From: Bacteroidota bacterium
Lineage (GTDB): Bacteria; Bacteroidota; Bacteroidia; Cytophagales; UBA9547
DNA length: 64,000 nucleotides
Assembly: GCA_004293915.1 (NCBI GenBank)
Contig: RDZG01000081.1
Coordinates: forward strand, 1-64,000
Direction: 5' to 3'
Below, one piece after another: positions 1 through 39,385 of the stretch. Every line of letters starts with the position of its first letter. Within the stretch, counting starts at the first letter, position 1. Position numbers and translations under genes: made by a program. The notes beneath the pieces are model-generated. The model worked only from the letters and a program-made list of their open reading frames with translations. It was not told the DNA's origin and did not search any database.

Positions 1-229
1 CAGTGCAGCCCAATTGGGATTTGCAAAATCAGCATTAGGCTTGTTTAATTCGCCAAGCATATTGCTCGAATGGCAAGCCACCGAACAATTCAAAATTGGT
101 TATGCCTTTGATTATAACACAGGTGTACAGAATTTTTCTGGCTTCAGTAATGTAATGAGCCATGAAATCATGTTGCGTTACGAGATGGGATTCAATAAAG
201 CCAAAGTTTTGACGCCTAGGTATTTTTAA
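1..229 (+). CDS. PorP/SprF family type IX secretion membrane protein, C-terminal part
   Basis: The reading frame is open from the window edge, so only about the last 75 residues are present. The tail has alternating hydrophobic strands and ends in MLRYEMGFNKAKVLTPRYF. A terminal phenylalanine after a strand rich in aromatic residues is typical of Bacteroidota outer-membrane barrels, and the VLTPRYF-type ending is typical of PorP/SprF proteins. Family members act in the outer membrane as partners of the type IX secretion and gliding machinery. The next gene is a PorE-like OmpA protein, the usual neighbour of porP/sprF genes. The ATG/TTG-type start seen at 14 is internal, not the real start. 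Confidence 0.75.
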   Translation, partial: SAAQLGFAKSALGLFNSPSILLEWQATEQFKIGYAFDYNTGVQNFSGFSNVMSHEIMLRYEMGFNKAKVLTPRYF

Positions 230-264
230 AAATCATATAGCATAAAAATAAAAAAATTTATACA

Positions 265-3200
265 ATGAAAACAGTTCGCATATCTCTATTTAACTTATTT
301 TTTCTTTTTTTAACTGTAAATATATTTGCTCAAAAGGTAAATATGAGCCGTAAATTAGCTGATAATGAATATACAAAATTACATTTTGCTGATGCAGCAG
401 AATTGTACGAAGAATCACTCATAAAAGACAGCCTCAATACCGAATCTATGAAAAGATTAGGAGATTGTTATAGCAAAATAAGAGAATCTGCTAAAGCAGA
501 AAGAGTTTATAAAAAACTTTTTAGTTTAGGTTATCAAGACACAGAAGCATCTTTGGCTTATGCCGAAGTTTTGGCTCGTAATGGAAAATATGATGATGCA
601 AAATATTGGTATGCAAAATACGATGAAATGTTGCCTGGAGATAATAGAGGAAAAATTTTTGCATCTAAGTATGAAAATTTAACAAAATTTTATAGCGATT
701 CGGCTCGTTATACAATATATTTTGTAAACTTTAATACTGAACAAGCCGATTTTTCGCCTATTCCGTATGATTCTGGTTTGGTTTTTGCCTCTGCACGTGT
801 GCAGGGAACAGGTGTTCGCAGGGTATATGGTTGGAACAATACTTCGTATCTCGATATGTATTACGTTGATACCAATAGAGTTAAAAAAAATGTATTCTAT
901 ACCCCAATTGTAAAAGATGATGATGACACAACTACCTATACAAGCTTCAAAGAAAAAAACCCTTTGATGCCTGACGAAACTCGCAGAACTAGTAATGATA
1001 CCAAAACATTAGGTTTTAATGGACATTATTATAAAAAACAAAATATAAAAGGAGATACAAGCATAGTTTTTGCATCTAAATTTAGCAGTAAACTCAATAC
1101 AAAATACCACGATGGTCCTTGTGCATTTGACGGAGATTCAATCATATATTTTACAAGAAACAATTACAACAAACTAAAATCTGGAAAAAGTAAAGAAAAA
1201 GTAAATAAACTTAAATTGTATTTTTCTAAAAAAGTAAATGGAAGTTGGACAACTGCAAAAGAAATGCCATTTAATAGTAACGAATATTCTGTTGGTCATC
1301 CTGCATTAAGCAATGATAAAAAAACCATTTATTTTGCTTCTGATATGCCTGGCACAAAAGGAGGAACAGATATTTTTAAATCTACTAAAAACGAAAAGGG
1401 AGAATGGAGTACACCCGAAAATATAGGCGATGAAATAAATACTGCTGGTAACGAAATGTTCCCTTTTGTTGATGTAAATGATAACTTATATTTTGCTTCA
1501 AACGGAATGGCAGGTTTAGGCGGTTTGGATATTTTTAAAACAAAGCTTTCGGGAGGTACACCCAAAAATTTGGGATATCCAATAAATTCCAAAAAAGATG
1601 ATTTTGGTTTAATTGCGAGTGCAAATATGAAACAAGGCTATTTTAGTTCGAACCGCAAACGTGGTGGACCTGATGATGATATTTATATGTTTGATTTTAA
1701 ACCAGGTATAAAACTCGAAGGCATAATAGTTTATGTGAAAGACGAATCGCCAATTGATAAAGCACAAATAAGACTTGACGAAAAAGGTGGTAATGTTGTT
1801 CCAGAAAAAGAAAATGATTTTGATGGTAAATTTATTTTTGATGGATTAGAACCTGATAAAAAATATTATATCCCAATACGGAGAGAAGGTTTTGCCGATC
1901 AATTAGCCGAAATCAATACATTTGGTGTTAAATCAGGCGAAACAATACAAGTAAAAATTTATATGGACAAAGCCATTACTTTAGCACTTGAAGGAACTCT
2001 AACGGATAGGGAAGTAGACCCAACGGCTTATGAGCCAATTACTTTAGTAAATAAAACAACAGGCGAAACCATCAAATCAAAAACAGACGAAAATGGACGT
2101 TTTTATTTTCCATTAAACCCAGAAAACGACTATGAAGTTTTTGGCACAAAAGGTGAAATCAAATCAAATATTGAAGCTCGTTCTACCAAAGGTTTAACTG
2201 AATCGAAAGTGATAACAGCTTTTTTAAATATCCAACCGCCAAACGAATGTGATATGAATAAACGCAAATATTTTATTGAAAACACGTATTATGATTTGGA
2301 TAAAGCTGATGTTAGAGCAGATGCAAAACCTGTTCTAGATAAATTAATAAGTTTATTGAAAGCCGAATCTGATTTAACCGTTGAGTTTGCATCACATACC
2401 GATTCGAGAGCTTCGGGTTCTTATAATCAACGTTTGGCTTTGAGAAGAAGTAATGCAGTGATGAAATATCTATTGGCAGAAGGTATTACAATGAATCGCA
2501 TGTCGATTAGTGTGGCAAAAGATCCTATGCAAGGTTGTATGAATAGCAGTTATTGCGATGAAGCTAAACAACAAAGCGGCAGAAGAACCTCGTATTGCAT
2601 AATCAAAAACGGAATCTGTACCGAAAAAATCAGATGTAAAGATGGAGCAATTGCCCTTACTGGAAAAGCATTTAGCTCGGAAACAAAATTACCAATGTCT
2701 GGCGTAAAAGTGGTGTTGAAAGATAAAACCGATGGAAGTGTTTTAGCATCTACAACAACAGCCGACAATGGTATGTATGCATTTGATGTAAAACCAAATA
2801 AAGAATATGTTGTAGAAGCCACAAAAGATAGTTGTGCAGATAATATTCAGTTTGTAATTACTAAAAATATAAAAGCAAAAACAATCAATATCGATAGTCC
2901 ATTGTTGTGCGAAGGTGATAAAATTAGATTAGAAAAAATATTCTTCGATCTTGGTAAATATAACATCAGACCTGATGCAGGAAAAGAATTAGATAAAGTG
3001 ATTCGCACAATGAATAAATATCCGAAATTGAGAATCAAATTAGGTTCGCACACAGATAGTCGAGGAAGCGAAGAATCAAATAGAACATTATCTTCAAACC
3101 GTGCAAAATCTTCGGCTGAATATATTATCAAAAAAGGTAAATTTGATCCAAGTCGTATCGAGTTTGAAGGCTATGGCGAGTCTAGACCAGTAAACCGTTG

Positions 3201-3366: not shown

Positions 3367-4059
3367 ATGATTGATTCAATTATTCCATTAGTTTCTCTTA
3401 TTGCATTAGAGGTAATTCTTGGTATAGATAATATTATTTTTATTTCCATTTTAGCTGACAAACTACCTGATAATCAAAAAGATAAACTAAGATTTTGGGG
3501 TATTGGTTTGGCAATGATAATGAGGCTTATTTTATTAGCTTTTATATCTTGGATTTTACAATTAGATAAAACTTTATTCAGCCTATTTCAAATTGATTTT
3601 TCTGGCAAAGGACTTATTTTGATTATTGGTGGACTGTTTCTTATTTATAAAAGCACAAAAGAAATATATCATAAATCTGAAATGGCTTCTGATGAAAATC
3701 CAAAAGCTCCAACAATTATAAGTTTTAATCGGCTACTTTTAGAAGTAATTATTTTAGATTTGGTTTTTTCAATCGATTCAATTATTACTGCAGTTGGTAT
3801 GGTTAAAAAACTTTGGGTAATGTATGCTGCAGTAATTATTACTGTTGTAATTATGATATTTGCATCTAAACCAATTAGTATGTTTATTAGAAATCACCCA
3901 TCTTTTAAAATTTTAGCTTTGTGTTTTTTAATGATGATTGGTGTAACGCTAATTGCCGAAGGTTTTCATTTTAACATTCCCAAAGGATATATCTATTTTT
4001 CTATGGCATTTGCATTTTTGGTAGATGTAATTCAATTAAAAACAACAAAACAAAGTTGA
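3367..4059 (+). CDS. TerC family integral membrane protein
   Basis: A 230-residue protein with about seven membrane segments. It shows two internally repeated acidic motifs typical of TerC: EVILGIDNIIFISI near the N-terminus and DLVFSIDSIITAVGM near residue 140. TerC-family proteins sit in the inner membrane and are linked to tellurite resistance and to manganese export and protein metalation. The gene stands alone, about 90 bp after the OmpA gene. It is far from the TerD/TerB cluster at 26-28 kb, so a joint function with that cluster is possible but not shown by position. Confidence 0.88.
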   Translation: MIDSIIPLVSLIALEVILGIDNIIFISILADKLPDNQKDKLRFWGIGLAMIMRLILLAFISWILQLDKTLFSLFQIDFSGKGLILIIGGLFLIYKSTKEIYHKSEMASDENPKAPTIISFNRLLLEVIILDLVFSIDSIITAVGMVKKLWVMYAAVIITVVIMIFASKPISMFIRNHPSFKILALCFLMMIGVTLIAEGFHFNIPKGYIYFSMAFAFLVDVIQLKTTKQS

Positions 4060-4153
4060 AGTTTCTTGTTTAATTAGTATTTTGCTAATAAAACAGCACA
4101 AACTCCACCTTTGCAACTATCCAGAATTACAATGTTTTTAGATATGTATTTTT

Positions 4154-4507
4154 CTAATTGTTGATTTTCGTATACCTATCGTTTGAAATTAATTTTTCCT
4201 TTAAAAAATTATATATTGACAAATAGACTTTATGTTTAAAAAAATAATTTACAAGTTCTAGTGCTATAAAACCAATAAGTACAGAAAGGGTAAATTGTAG
4301 CCATTCGGGGGTAGTATTTACAATTATTTTTTTTCTTTTTACAAGTCCAAACAAATTATTGATACCTTTTTTTTCATATACAGTTTTAGTAAACCAAGAG
4401 CTAGTCCACATGCCAACTAAAAAACCAATAAATCTGCCTAATGCTTCATTGATTATAAATTCCGAAATTTTCTCTTTCGTAAAAATGGAAGAAATTACTG
4501 CTTTCAT
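4154..4507 (-). CDS. small membrane protein of unknown function
   Basis: A 117-residue protein that I do not recognise. It has an amphipathic N-terminus, a hydrophobic segment at about residues 25-40 (RFIGFLVGMWTSSW) and a second one at about 70-90 (FTLSVLIGFIALELVNYFF), followed by a lysine-rich tail. It lies 16 bp downstream of the secreted protein at 4524-5798 on the same strand, so the two may be co-transcribed. The start ATG at 4507 gives a compact protein beginning MKAVISS. No catalytic motif is visible. Confidence 0.55.
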   Translation of the reverse strand: MKAVISSIFTKEKISEFIINEALGRFIGFLVGMWTSSWFTKTVYEKKGINNLFGLVKRKKIIVNTTPEWLQFTLSVLIGFIALELVNYFFKHKVYLSIYNFLKEKLISNDRYTKINN

Positions 4508-4523
4508 AATTATTGGTTATCGC

Positions 4524-5798
4524 TTAAGTTTTTTGTTTCTTTTTCTTGGCTGCTGGAAAAAGTATGTTATTTAAAATTAATCGATAACCAGGCGAGTTTG
4601 GATGCAAATTCAAATCGGTTGGTTCTTCGCCTACAGAATGTTGGTAATCTTCTGGGTCGTGTCCTCCATAAAATGTCCAAAAACCTTTTCCAAAATTACC
4701 ATGAATATAGCGAACTTCGTTCATCGATTTGGTTTCTGCCATAGAAATCACATCAGATTTTACAAGCGATTTGCGAAATGCTGTAGTTTGTCCCATAAAA
4801 CCTTTTATTAAATTTTCGTGACTTTGGGTAAGCATTGTTGGCACAGGATCCCATTTTGCCGAAAACTGAAAAAGTTGAAAATAATCGTTTTTTTCTTCCA
4901 AAGTTAAAGGTTGATTGTTTGGACGGCTGTCGATATTAGAATACTCATAAGCCAATGGATTGGGTTCGAGCTGAAAGTTTTTGAATGCTAATGTGTTTTC
5001 AAAACTTAATTTTCGGTTTGCATTTGGGTCTGCTGCATCGCCATCGTACATATATTCGCAAATGTCTGTACCATCTGCTGACATGGCAATATCATAGGTA
5101 TCAGTGGCAGCACACATGGCAAACAAAAATCCTCCGCCAGCCATAAAATCCCTAATTTTTTTAACCACACCCAATTTGAGTTGCGAGACTTTATTAAATC
5201 CAAATTTTTGAGCCACAGCAGTAGCCTCTTTTACTTCGTTTTGATACCAAGGTTGATGATGATACGAAGCATAAAATTTTCCATATTGACCTGTAAAATC
5301 TTCGTGATGCAAATGCAACCAATCGAATTTTGGAAGTTCGCCAGTAATAATTTCATCATCAAAAATCACAGTATATGGAATCTCGGCATACGTTAGAACC
5401 ATGGTAACGGCATCGTCCCAAGGTTGTTTGGTTTTTGGCGAATACACAGCAATTTTTGGTACTTTTTCGAGTTTCATTGCATCCATATTGGCATCTGGAG
5501 CTGCAATTTCGGCAAGTATATTATTTGATACTGCATCAGAGATTACTTCGTATCTTATGCCTCTTATAATCAATTCATTTTCAAAGGCTTGTGCATACTT
5601 AAACATAAAACTTCCGCCTCTATAATTCAATAACCAATAGGCTTCTACATCTTTTTGTAACACCCAATAAGTAAATCCATACGATTTCAAGTGATTGGTT
5701 TGTTCGCTATCCATTGGCAAAAGCAAATACGAGCCTAAACTTTGATAAATAGCAACAATAAAAATGATGGAACTATATTTTATTTTTCTAAAAAGCAT
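4524..5798 (-). CDS. conserved secreted Bacteroidota protein (database name often asparagine synthetase B)
   Basis: A 424-residue protein with an N-terminal signal peptide or anchor. It contains highly conserved stretches such as SYLLLPMDSEQTNHLKSYG, WLLNYRGGSF, FDWLHLHHEDFTGQYG and GGGFLFAMCAATD. As far as I recall, closely related Bacteroidota proteins are labelled asparagine synthetase B. No glutaminase Cys2 N-terminus and no PP-loop synthetase domain is visible, so that name looks wrong. The GGGFLFAMC motif with a cysteine in a glycine-rich turn resembles class I amidotransferase-like or ThuA-like folds. This is inference. The protein is probably periplasmic and its substrate is unknown. 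Confidence 0.7.
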   Translation of the reverse strand: MLFRKIKYSSIIFIVAIYQSLGSYLLLPMDSEQTNHLKSYGFTYWVLQKDVEAYWLLNYRGGSFMFKYAQAFENELIIRGIRYEVISDAVSNNILAEIAAPDANMDAMKLEKVPKIAVYSPKTKQPWDDAVTMVLTYAEIPYTVIFDDEIITGELPKFDWLHLHHEDFTGQYGKFYASYHHQPWYQNEVKEATAVAQKFGFNKVSQLKLGVVKKIRDFMAGGGFLFAMCAATDTYDIAMSADGTDICEYMYDGDAADPNANRKLSFENTLAFKNFQLEPNPLAYEYSNIDSRPNNQPLTLEEKNDYFQLFQFSAKWDPVPTMLTQSHENLIKGFMGQTTAFRKSLVKSDVISMAETKSMNEVRYIHGNFGKGFWTFYGGHDPEDYQHSVGEEPTDLNLHPNSPGYRLILNNILFPAAKKKKQKT

Positions 5799-36029: not shown

Positions 36030-37157
36030 TTACAAATTATTATAAATTATTGCAAGTTCTGTTTTGATTTGTCTGAAAGTTAAATCGGCTTTAAGTTCTT
36101 GGTTAAGTCCTGTATTGATACAATAAACAAACGATTCTTTTCGGTAATACAATTCGTTTTTTTTCAATGATTTTTCAATACTGTCTGTTTTGGCAAGTAA
36201 GCAAACAAGCTGATAATCTAAATTTATTGCATCTGTCTTGTTGTTTGGGTGTGCCTTTGTATAATGTTGTGTTGCCGTTAATTTGATTAAATTTTCTAAG
36301 TAGTGCGCAAGTTGAGGAAACTTGCTTTTAGGAAAAATATGATGTATTTGAGTAGCATCACCATTTGACCATTGGTCTTTAATCTCACTTTCGGAATACA
36401 TTTTCCTAATTTGGTTCATAGCTTTTTGAACTAAATAGGAATTAAAAGCTGTATCTGTTAATATATTTTGTTCACTTTCTGTATTTGCTTCTTGACGAGA
36501 AATAGTTTTATCTTTTGATAAATCACGCCAATTTTTTCTATTATACATTAAGTCTGTGTAGTAAAATTCATTGTCCGACATTCTACCCTTAACCGAGCCT
36601 GGCAAGTTGTTTTCACAAGCAAATATGTTTAATAGCTTTGGATAGATACGTCTTACTTCTACATCGCCATTTATTGCAGTATTTCCAATTATGAATTTAA
36701 TAAATCGTTTTTGTAAATCTTCAAAATCATCTTGTGATAAATTGCCTTTTTCATACTTATTTTTGTAATCGTCAAAGAATTTCAATAGTCCACTATCGGA
36801 CATTACTTTTGAAAAGTATTTATACAAAAAAGTATAAGTATTTCTATCTTTCAAAGATATGTACTCTAAAACAGACAAATTAGCAACCTTATATATATTT
36901 TTTATGCCTTTTTTTTCAATATCCAATACTCCTGCATACGCTAAAAGTCGTAATGGCTGTTGGATAAATTTATCATATTCGCTTTTTGTAGTAGAATTTG
37001 TCGCCAATGGCTTATTAAAAATTGCTTTTACGTTTTTGATAAAATATTGTGAGTTCCAAATATCAGCAACTGTAAAGCTCTTATTTTTGTCGTTTCCTAC
37101 GAAATTTATTTTTAATGTAGAACAAATAAAAGTATATTTTGAATAATATTTAAACAT
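36030..37157 (-). CDS. HNH-type endonuclease of a restriction-modification operon
   Basis: 375 residues. Near residues 268-310 lies a clear HNH core: ATQIHHIFPKSKFPQ, then LENLIKLTATQHYTKAHP, with the double histidine, the asparagine and the following histidines. The N-terminal 250 residues are helical without a recognised domain and may recognise the target. Its start codon overlaps the stop of the preceding 86-codon gene, so the operon is methyltransferase, DUF3883 protein, small protein, HNH nuclease. This is consistent with the restriction enzyme of the unit. It lies 28 bases upstream of nuoL. Confidence 0.72.
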   Translation of the reverse strand: MFKYYSKYTFICSTLKINFVGNDKNKSFTVADIWNSQYFIKNVKAIFNKPLATNSTTKSEYDKFIQQPLRLLAYAGVLDIEKKGIKNIYKVANLSVLEYISLKDRNTYTFLYKYFSKVMSDSGLLKFFDDYKNKYEKGNLSQDDFEDLQKRFIKFIIGNTAINGDVEVRRIYPKLLNIFACENNLPGSVKGRMSDNEFYYTDLMYNRKNWRDLSKDKTISRQEANTESEQNILTDTAFNSYLVQKAMNQIRKMYSESEIKDQWSNGDATQIHHIFPKSKFPQLAHYLENLIKLTATQHYTKAHPNNKTDAINLDYQLVCLLAKTDSIEKSLKKNELYYRKESFVYCINTGLNQELKADLTFRQIKTELAIIYNNL

Positions 37158-37410
37158 TGTATTTTATTGTTTTGACTGAACCAAAATCTAGTGCTTTATC
37201 TGTATATGATAGTTTACCACAATCATTTATAAATAATTCATTAGAATTGGCTGAAATTTGTACCATTCTCATAGGATAAATTGTTTCATTCCAATCGTTA
37301 TTCCAAAACCTGTCTGCTTCAGAGAGGGTATCATAAATTTCAAATTCAGATCCTACATTTTGAATTTGAAATTTTATCCCATAAACAATTTTTGTTTCCA
37401 TATTTACCAT
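37150..37410 (-). CDS. 86-residue protein of the restriction-modification operon
   Basis: A small protein of unknown function, rich in beta strands and acidic residues (IQNVGSEFEIYDTLSEADRF). Its start (ATG at 37410) overlaps the stop of the DUF3883 gene and its end overlaps the HNH gene start, so all three are translationally coupled. It could be a specificity or control partner, or a subunit of the nuclease. No helix-turn-helix is visible, so it is not a typical C-protein. Confidence 0.6.
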   Translation of the reverse strand: MVNMETKIVYGIKFQIQNVGSEFEIYDTLSEADRFWNNDWNETIYPMRMVQISANSNELFINDCGKLSYTDKALDFGSVKTIKYNV

Positions 37411-38165
37411 TTAAAAGATTTTGTTGAATATGTTTTTTGTGTTGTAGTTCTTTCAGTTAGTTCAAAATTTAGTTCTTGAAGTGGATTTGAAATTAAAGTC
37501 ATTTTAGGCGATTTTACTAAATTACTAATTACAATAATGTGATAATCAGCCTTAACTTCATTTGCTTTTTTGAATTCATTTTCTGTAATTCTAATTGAAC
37601 CTTGTGCATCTTTTAGACCTTTAACTTCGGCTAGTAAATAAATTGAATTTAGATTTATTTGAAAATCATAACCATCTCCCCAAAGTCTTGCATCTTCAAT
37701 AATTCCACCTTTAAATATTTCTATTTCATTGTAATTACTCATAAAATAGTATTCTGCTTCGTTTCCTGTTTCTTGCATTTGCTTAAACTTTGACTTTGTT
37801 ACAGGCGAAATGGTTTCTATGTTTAAATTTACATCTGAATTGAAATCTTTGATATAAAATTTTACAATGTTGGCAAATTCTTTGGCATTTTCATTTCCAA
37901 ATAGATTATCTATAAATAGTTTTATGTGTTTCCTTTGATTTCTTTGCCACCAACCTTTTCTGACATTATCAAAATATGGGTCAAATGTATCTTGTCTATT
38001 TGAAACTGCTTTAATTGAATTTGCTAAACCAATATCCACAACAAACTGACTAAAAGAAGTTTTAGTTTTATACTCAAATTCATTTGTGAATTGCAAATCA
38101 AATTTTGCTAATCCATACCCAATTAGGTTTAAAATTTCTGATATTTTATCTTCTTTTTCAACCAT
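37404..38165 (-). CDS. DUF3883-type protein with PD-(D/E)XK-like core
   Basis: 253 residues. The C-terminal part LWGDGYDFQI, then YLLAEVKGLKDAQGSIRIT, then EFKKANEVKADYHIIVI, is the DUF3883 (NO VEIN-related) pattern with a D...EVK nuclease-like signature. The N-terminal 130 residues resemble no family I know. DUF3883 domains are often fused to or found with restriction-modification and other anti-phage modules. It lies five bases after the methyltransferase gene. It may help recognise or cut DNA together with the HNH protein. Confidence 0.72.
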   Translation of the reverse strand: MVEKEDKISEILNLIGYGLAKFDLQFTNEFEYKTKTSFSQFVVDIGLANSIKAVSNRQDTFDPYFDNVRKGWWQRNQRKHIKLFIDNLFGNENAKEFANIVKFYIKDFNSDVNLNIETISPVTKSKFKQMQETGNEAEYYFMSNYNEIEIFKGGIIEDARLWGDGYDFQINLNSIYLLAEVKGLKDAQGSIRITENEFKKANEVKADYHIIVISNLVKSPKMTLISNPLQELNFELTERTTTQKTYSTKSFKW

Positions 38166-38170
38166 AAATA

Positions 38171-39385
38171 TTAAGCTACGAGTTTTGCGTTAGGGATTGA
38201 AGTGGAAATCATTTTTAGAGGAACGAAAAAAAGATTGGAACGAAAAGCCCGACCCGATAGGAGAACGCCAAAATTATCTTCGCCCAAACAATGGCGAATA
38301 TTCATTTCTTCTTTTTTTAGAAATAGTTTTTTTTGTTCTAATGTCAGTTTATTTAACTCTTCAATTTGCTTTTCAGTCCATTTAAAACTATTAGGAATAG
38401 ACATCATTAGCATCACTTCACGGATACTGAAAACCCTGTCATCAGTTGGATGTACTGTATTTTGGCTTGATAAAATATCGTTACGAGTATGTATACATGG
38501 TGCAACCTTGTTCCAATATTGTCGTTTATATTTGTCTCCGTTTTTGTTTGTGTTGTAAATTATTACGCCAGTATCAACCTTGTGAGGTATTTTATTATGG
38601 TCTTTATTATCAAATGCCGATTGTCCTTCTTTAATATCAGAAACCCAACTTTGCATTTTTGGTGCATAATTTTTAAAACTATGGTAAATATCTGTTTCTG
38701 ATATTTGTCCCATTGTTTTCAATGGTTCTAAATGCCCAATCGTTTCAAAAAGTGTTTTTTCTTTGATTAAACCTGGCGAAATATTAAAAGGTGTAATTTC
38801 TTTTAAGTCTTTTCGTGTTCCAATTACCAAAGTTCTTGTCCTGCTTGACGGATTTCCGTAATCTTTGAAGTTTAAAACTTGGTAGTTTATATGATATTCT
38901 CCTGCCAAATTTAATTCAATGGCTTCTTTGATTGTTTTATCTTTTCCGTCTGTGTCGGTGCATTGAGTTGTTAAAAATGCTCTTACGTTTTCAAAAATAA
39001 AAAATCTTGGTTTGATTTCTTTCGTCAATAAAATTGATTCAATTACTAATGAATTTCTATTTAATTCATTTCCTTTTTTATGGTTCGCAACTGACATTCC
39101 TTGACAAGGTGGTGTAGCAATTAATGCATCAAGCTCATTTCCTTTTTCTTTGATGTTCCATTTAGTAAGTTCCTTACGAATTTTATTTTTTGCTATGTCT
39201 GTTGTTATGTCATCACTAATATAGGCACTCTCGTAAACACATTTTTCGTTGTGTCGTTGTATATTGAGCCTTTTTTCTAAAATTTCAACTGTCGCAACAC
39301 AATAAAATTGCTCTAACTTAAAGCCATAACAGCCAATGCCTGCACTACTGAATAAACTAATGTATGTTAGAGGCTTTTTTATCAT
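38171..39385 (-). CDS. DNA (cytosine-5-)methyltransferase with an abnormal C-terminus
   Basis: 404 residues. Motif I is SLFSSAGIGCYGFKLEQF, motif IV is ALIATPPCQGMSVAN with the catalytic cysteine in PCQ, motif VI is FFIFENVRAFL and motif VIII is SSRTRTLVIGT. Motif X should follow NIRHCLGE as a GEAVP-type stretch, but the frame instead runs through a repeat-like sequence (DNFGVLLSGRAFRSNLFF) to the stop. The methyltransferase protects DNA from the cognate nuclease. It is first in an operon with DUF3883, small-protein and HNH genes. Loss of motif X could impair AdoMet binding or folding. The family is certain; activity is open. Confidence 0.9.
   Translation of the reverse strand: MIKKPLTYISLFSSAGIGCYGFKLEQFYCVATVEILEKRLNIQRHNEKCVYESAYISDDITTDIAKNKIRKELTKWNIKEKGNELDALIATPPCQGMSVANHKKGNELNRNSLVIESILLTKEIKPRFFIFENVRAFLTTQCTDTDGKDKTIKEAIELNLAGEYHINYQVLNFKDYGNPSSRTRTLVIGTRKDLKEITPFNISPGLIKEKTLFETIGHLEPLKTMGQISETDIYHSFKNYAPKMQSWVSDIKEGQSAFDNKDHNKIPHKVDTGVIIYNTNKNGDKYKRQYWNKVAPCIHTRNDILSSQNTVHPTDDRVFSIREVMLMMSIPNSFKWTEKQIEELNKLTLEQKKLFLKKEEMNIRHCLGEDNFGVLLSGRAFRSNLFFVPLKMISTSIPNAKLVA
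38174..38278. repeat. repeat-like sequence overlapping the methyltransferase 3' end
   Basis: The stretch contains GCGTTAGGGATTGAAGTGG and, further on, GATTGGAACGAAAAGCCCGA. It resembles a palindrome-rich sequence that I recall as dispersed between genes in many Bacteroidota genomes. It forms an imperfect hairpin (AATCATTTTT with AAAAAAAGATT). It supplies the last 35 codons of the methyltransferase reading frame. No second copy occurs in this window, so the repeat nature rests on memory. Confidence 0.45.

Follow-up and report, generated by a model that had tools for sequence, protein, structure and literature searches.

A Flavo-1 repeat at the rewritten 3' end of a C5-cytosine DNA methyltransferase gene in a member of the Bacteroidota

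Flavo-1 (RF01705) has been listed among the candidate RNAs of the Bacteroidetes (PMC2864571, Table 1), and a transcriptome study describes Flavo-1 matches that lie sense or antisense to transcribed regions indifferently, with many outside such regions (PMC9723704). A narrow literature search on Flavo-1 returned no report of the element inside an enzyme gene. In-frame fusions of palindromic repeats are known from the Rickettsia palindromic elements (RPEs) and other MITEs, and an RPE-bearing guanylate kinase is described as retaining activity (PMC2229807, PMC10969869). In C5-cytosine DNA methyltransferases motif X is counted as part of the SAM site; in circularly permuted enzymes of the M.BssHII type it lies before motif I, and a circular permutant of M.MpeI broken inside motif X is reported as inactive (PMC5944983).

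Here we describe a methyltransferase gene in a 64,000-nt stretch of DNA from a Bacteroidota bacterium of the order Cytophagales (the window), in which a Flavo-1 element forms most of the 3' end. The window copy resembles the described family in that its full-length match to the model exceeds the curated threshold, but differs in lying antisense within a protein-coding gene, in its eroded hairpin and in being the only copy found in its genome. As in the RPE and MITE fusions, a short palindromic repeat lies in frame in a conserved enzyme gene and is apparently tolerated; RPEs, however, are inserted segments in many unrelated genes, whereas in this one case the C-terminus was replaced and a conserved motif lost. 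As in M.BssHII, the motif-X region is missing from its usual place and the rest of the enzyme is intact, but here motif X is gone instead of moved. The PADLOC cassettes PDLC03370/PDLC03488 contain the same methyltransferase subfamily, and where the loci of relatives extend far enough, most have an HNH gene downstream. In contrast to the window cassette, which lacks motif X and the N-terminal block of the HNH protein, these relatives mostly have a longer methyltransferase ORF and rarely a NOV_C gene.

The methyltransferase gene and its new C-terminus

The gene occupies 38171..39385 on the minus strand and encodes 404 aa. Its product belongs to PF00145, which it matches over residues 7-340 (E 7.5e-40, 137.8 bits against a cut-off of 22); it is also matched by TIGR00675 and, over residues 4-370, by PADLOC MTase_II (E 1.8e-134). 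PPCQG and ENV, which we take to be motifs IV and VI of C5-methyltransferases, belong to the invariant columns in the alignment of homologues. The family-like sequence ends at ...NIRHCLGE, where GE (residues 368-369; 38279..38284, minus strand) is the last remnant of GEAVP, G368 being nearly invariant among the aligned homologues. There follow 35 foreign residues (370-404; 38174..38278, minus strand) and a stop at 38171-38173. When aligned with 22 loci and placed by coordinates, residues 370-404 bear no resemblance to intact homologues, and full motif X (GEAVP plus helix) is absent. In the intact relative L015 the C-terminus reads GEAVPTIIFHQIAA*, and the NOV_C gene starts 5 nt later, which indicates that the window enzyme has had what remained of motif X, with its short helix, replaced, some 12 residues in all; its own stop is separated from the NOV_C start by the same 5 nt. 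A G-E/N-x-V word was sought in the methyltransferase, the three cassette genes and the neighbouring GNAT gene, and was found in none. The genome has a second C5-methyltransferase (L011, G000:C106:2683-3630), 35% identical to the first, with a GECIP-like motif X at its C-terminus.

We surveyed motif X in the 20 homologues of the genome_contigs set (L013-L032). GEAVP was present in 17/20, and L030, a Patescibacteria MAG, has GESVP if TGA is read as glycine, so that 18/20 carry GEAVP or GESVP where the window enzyme has only GE; the loss of part of motif X, proposed in a sequence-only reading of this DNA, is thereby borne out. Outside this set, L067-L069 carry GESVP, and L071 and L072 GEAVP. The two homologues without motif X, L013 and L016, are themselves defective. 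In L016, a Cytophagales relative (L016:675-1784 and 2937-3125), motif X was lost by a different change beside an intact-looking NOV_C. In 15/20 relatives the methyltransferase lies within a longer ORF of 813-873 codons, and a NOV_C match is nearby only in L013, L015 and L016. The 19-row alignments A1 and A2 leave out L004 (which has the same methyltransferase ORF as L016), L005, L019, L029, L030, L067-L070, L072 and L073. With regard to L030 (L030:4001-5200), reading 23 TGA codons as glycine (table 25) restores conserved residues.

The foreign end corresponds to a Flavo-1 element at 38182..38258 on the plus strand, antisense to the methyltransferase. The match covers the full model (1-76) at 52.7 bits, above the gathering score of 42, and with E = 1.1e-10 (501 bases) or 1.4e-8 (whole window) is not a chance match. 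By coordinates, 25/35 tail residues (377-401) lie wholly within the Flavo-1 model, the remaining 10/35 coming wholly or partly from its flanks. The sequence-only reading had described a methyltransferase overwritten after NIRHCLGE by a GC-richer, hairpin-like, dispersed Bacteroidota repeat encoding 35 unrelated residues. The overwriting agrees with the Flavo-1 match, and the G+C of 38171-38278 is indeed 39.8% versus 29.3% for the cassette, a GC-richness equalled by 37/3248 sliding 108-nt windows of the cassette. The hairpin needs correction: the family assignment fits, but the hairpin of the window copy is eroded, folding no better than shuffles (z 0.35, with 127/200 shuffles at least as stable; opposite strand z 0.56), so we file it as a decayed copy of the Flavo-1 family. 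An Arrc11 match was rejected as chance (16 bits versus a cut-off of 52).

In its own 156-contig genome no further Flavo-1 copy was found by BLASTN with a 151-nt query, and the covariance model found only the window copy (150/789 first-look candidates scored). Taken literally, this absence counts against the earlier reading, yet it does not refute it: the repeat is dispersed elsewhere, since Flavobacterium restrictum has 52 Flavo-1 matches, 42 of them over cut-off. Across the order to which the window genome belongs, 12/118 genomes, that genome included, have Flavo-1 over cut-off under stricter filters, indicating a patchy distribution with many copies in some members. Given the 42 copies over cut-off in F. 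restrictum, a flavobacterial origin of the element is likely.

Thirty of the 52 F. restrictum matches were fetched and 27 read, the short loci L036, L039 and L044 being dropped. The frame on the antisense strand of Flavo-1 is open in 24/27 copies and that on its own strand in 15/27, and 23/27 copies read overlap no ORF of at least 120 aa. Among the 26 copies read other than that of the cassette, 3 overlap such an ORF; one of these three ORFs matches Pfam, and the element lies upstream of its domain. By eye, the internal hairpin arms differ between F. restrictum copies yet look complementary (L033-L062), and their ends fall into two or more types, among them GCCC..GGG and GCGTTAGGG..CCCGACCC.

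The copy inside the F. restrictum cassette (locus L013) folds well (z -1.94, 6/200 shuffles as stable; other strand z -2.19). Together with the listing of Flavo-1 as a candidate RNA (PMC2864571), this speaks for an element that acts as an RNA or DNA hairpin between the genes, for example by tuning nuclease expression, its coding effect being incidental. The tail DNA, which is 81% identical between window and L013 and thus above the fourfold sites of the methyltransferase (43/88 equal), points the same way. We nevertheless regard such a role as unlikely, because neither strand of the window copy folds better than shuffles and because Flavo-1 matches are described as falling sense or antisense indifferently, many of them outside transcribed regions (PMC9723704).

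The Flavobacterium restrictum cassette and horizontal transfer

F. restrictum has the same cassette, with 83% and 80% DNA identity over two aligned parts. Its Flavo-1 scores 69.1 bits and has the same junction and orientation as the window copy, and the stop position and neighbouring flank are also common to both. Among the loci of six relatives, Flavo-1 is over cut-off only in L013; L014, L015, L016, L004 and L005 are without it. The word GCTACGAG beside the element occurs in the window and in L013/L047. In the alignment with homologues L013 has the same tail; since it carries the same Flavo-1, its tail does not contradict an overwritten end. In F. restrictum a frameshift lies just upstream of NIRHCLG, together with a 15-nt gap; the frameshifted methyltransferase end and an HNH block without a preceding start codon are found at L013:1299-2450 and 3509-4690.

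Because the same Flavo-1 sits at the same junction, the insertion is probably older than the split of the two cassettes. Two independent hits at a preferred site would require an attractive target, for which the intergenic space is plausible given that 23/27 F. restrictum copies overlap no ORF of at least 120 aa. We consider such a coincidence highly improbable, however, because junction, orientation, stop position and neighbouring flank are all alike and because GCTACGAG does not occur close to any of the other 26 F. restrictum copies that were read.

Flavo-1 probably came to the window genome with the cassette, and the data are most simply explained by a single insertion, in an ancestor of flavobacterial type, followed by horizontal arrival of the cassette, the direction of transfer being inferred. 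At E <= 1e-20 neither of the two congeners sampled has the methyltransferase, which is matched in 8/390 genomes of the order, its own included (E <= 1e-20), and in 4/397 genomes of the F. restrictum family, F. restrictum included (E <= 1e-40). NOV_C matches occur in 9/398 genomes of the F. restrictum genus, again including F. restrictum; identity is 51-55% for the NOV_C proteins of the eight other genomes and for that of a second locus in F. restrictum. In the ~1.5-kb flanks of these nine loci, tblastn detected only a distant methyltransferase (28-29%) at 2/9. The occurrence of NOV_C in several settings (L079-L087) suggests that it may be a portable module. In these Flavobacterium loci the distant methyltransferase lies beside L083 and L087, the remaining short flanks hold other genes, and a small gene before L084 is presumably Vsr-like.

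No close cassette without Flavo-1 was found in the genomes searched of the order, the F. restrictum family or the F. restrictum genus. Phages gave no match, plasmids gave methyltransferases below 60% identity and two distant NOV_C matches, and viral contigs gave three loci at 60%. In an empty-site test nuoL was found in G020, G065, G036 and G051, but beside it, in these four loci, there was no match to any of four window neighbour proteins (which we take to be LptD-like, GNAT, DinB and M16). The comparison thus did not reveal where the cassette was inserted.

The nuclease genes downstream

The methyltransferase adjoins putative nuclease genes (PADLOC MTase_II and REase_II, and NOV_C), which is the layout of a type II restriction-modification system, and L015, also from the Bacteroidota, shares all four genes and their order. 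The first downstream gene, at 37404..38165 (minus strand, 253 aa), is a NOV_C (DUF3883) nuclease-like gene (PF13020, E 3.9e-13). Its motif GYDFQI...EVKG/EIKG is kept in the four cassettes compared, and the window NOV_C nuclease looks intact as judged from this conservation. It is followed by a small, fast-changing gene (37150..37410, minus strand, 86 aa) whose product is 26% identical to its L013 counterpart, whereas its neighbours are 82-89% identical to theirs, which suggests that the junction was swapped or evolves very fast. Both of these small genes are short (86 aa in the window and 84 aa in L013, versus 134 in L015 and 125 in L016).

The last gene, at 36030..37157 (minus strand, 375 aa), encodes an HNH type II nuclease that, by PADLOC and alignment, keeps the HNH core and is missing its N-terminal block. 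REase_II, a profile of 430 positions, matches it with E 1.5e-80 over positions 42-381; the L013 protein is matched over 11-380 and that of L015 over 16-380. The missing block (DIRKxGNxRWIDQKCTPDV-like) is present in 16/16 other homologues examined. In L013 it lies within an open frame, yet no ATG, GTG or TTG precedes it. From L016, which stands outside the HNH alignment, tblastn recovers only HNH residues 311-373, a 63-residue part. The lesions of the window and L013 could be separate or could go back to one ancestral loss, as both small genes are short. On this evidence the cassette shows signs of decay in its HNH arm. The sequence-only reading had argued that the cognate nucleases would be dangerous unless they too were inactive; this is matched by the HNH gene and not by the intact-looking NOV_C.

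Damage to HNH thus accompanies all three cassettes without motif X (window, L013 and L016, representing two independent motif-X losses), whereas the N-terminal block is missing in 0/15 motif-X cassettes with a readable HNH start; L014, L025 and L031 have motif X and no HNH match in the locus. As the cassettes are related, these counts lack independence, and L019 is an exception. The association fits decay, and an insertion that killed or crippled the methyltransferase, leaving the cassette as a decaying remnant in which loss of HNH was also required, is a possibility that we take seriously without favouring it. It accords with the state of L016, which lost motif X by another route and retains only that 63-residue part of HNH, with the extra methyltransferase frameshift in F. 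restrictum and with the inactivity reported for the M.MpeI permutant with a break in motif X (PMC5944983). Against it, NOV_C looks intact in four cassettes, and the link between methyltransferase and HNH is not strict, as L019 combines a methyltransferase stop at residue 260 with a kept HNH block. L019 (L019:4001-5200) is an uncultured Peptococcaceae MAG in which this stop may be a sequencing error.

Selection on the fused enzyme and its proposed history

The rate of protein change argues against death of the enzyme at insertion. Between the window and L013, dN/dS (NG86 estimates; five pairs gave no valid dS) was 0.075 (dS 1.13) over the 357 codons of the methyltransferase body, 0.076 (dS 0.76) over the 253 codons of NOV_C and 0.076 (dS 1.59) over the 368 codons of HNH. 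As the insertion is present in both cassettes, the enzyme under this constraint was already the fused one, on the assumption of a single insertion event. Simple inactivation of the methyltransferase by the loss of motif X, as the earlier reading implied, is not supported by these values. Furthermore, in 500 simulations of unselected drift to the fourfold divergence, assuming equal substitution rates, the body acquired 16.5 stops on average and never fewer than 6, and none was observed.

In relative-rate tests chi-square reached 2.13 at most, so that the window lineage shows no significant excess. Of the columns that do not vary among the other homologues, the window differs at 2/114 and L013 at 1/114, compared with 3/117 each in L014, L015 and L016, 0-3 in the other complete rows and 7/121 in L071 (L031 being a partial row). 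The lack of excess changes also speaks against a dead enzyme, but L016, which is without motif X, lacks excess departures as well, so this measure is blind to a recent loss. We conclude that, as far as comparison of the genes can tell, the methyltransferase most likely kept its function long after the insertion, and that the chances of its being functional today are roughly even.

The tail behaves differently from the body. Its differences between window and L013 fall at 5, 8 and 6 of 33 sites at the three codon positions, versus 44, 21 and 125 of 356 sites each in the body; as there is no third-position bias, the tail gives no sign of protein-level selection. Coding selection on the tail, considered as a candidate explanation, is not supported by the codon positions. 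Such non-coding-like evolution would be expected if motif X beyond GE were dispensable in this subfamily and the tail were filler whose frame stayed open by chance. Two independent losses beside a conserved body, by Flavo-1 in window and L013 and by another change in L016, can be read in the same way, and an open tail would come cheaply, given that the antisense Flavo-1 frame is open in 24/27 copies. This explanation is doubtful, since GEAVP or GESVP is kept in 18/20 genome_contigs homologues and in L067-L069, L071 and L072, and since the cassettes without motif X also have damaged HNH genes and so do not demonstrate dispensability.

Structural modelling gives a hint that the helix of the new tail occupies the place of the motif-X helix. 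In the window protein as modelled by AlphaFold2 (mean pLDDT 79.6), residues 373-387 form a helix whose blocks have pLDDT values of 79 and 74, and pLDDT is < 50 at residues 390-404; the L015 model has a helix (372-379) at the same place. In VIA-align 2, which gives end points only for its ranges, the window model aligned to M.HhaI (2z6u_A) with Z 25.8, rmsd 3.3 and 299 aligned residues, up to its residue 392, and reached M.HhaI chain range 10..327, 327 being the last residue of that chain. The corresponding values for L015 were Z 24.7, rmsd 3.0 and 287 aligned, with the range 10..316. A working methyltransferase can be envisaged in which antisense Flavo-1, as part of the protein core, supplies the motif-X helix and stands in for a motif regarded as necessary for cofactor binding, the hybrid having been selected and passed between lineages; we offer this reading tentatively.

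Taken together, the history we favour, and hold to be probable, is that Flavo-1 replaced the methyltransferase end in a Flavobacterium-like ancestor, that the fused enzyme was long useful and that the cassette came here horizontally. Flavo-1 would have entered the 3' end of the methyltransferase gene that heads the methyltransferase / NOV_C / small gene / HNH cassette, replacing about 12 codons after the GE of GEAVP with an antisense frame that, as the sequence shows, runs on to the stop 5 nt before NOV_C. The hydrophobic tail probably packs as a substitute for the motif-X helix, to go by the model. If the insertion was one event, the usefulness of the fused enzyme would be reflected in the strong purifying selection on body, NOV_C and HNH since the cassettes separated. 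The cassette would then have moved horizontally to the window genome, where, we infer, the Flavo-1 hairpin decayed. In view of the damaged HNH arm, the system of today may consist of the methyltransferase, the intact-looking NOV_C nuclease and a second nuclease that is crippled.

These results place Flavo-1 inside a coding gene. As three cassettes share HNH damage, the cassette also provides a test case for the survival of restriction-modification after damage to the methyltransferase. Should the fused enzyme be active, it would show that a small palindromic repeat is able to substitute for part of a conserved catalytic fold as well as to interrupt one, and that motif X of C5-methyltransferases is more replaceable than has been assumed.
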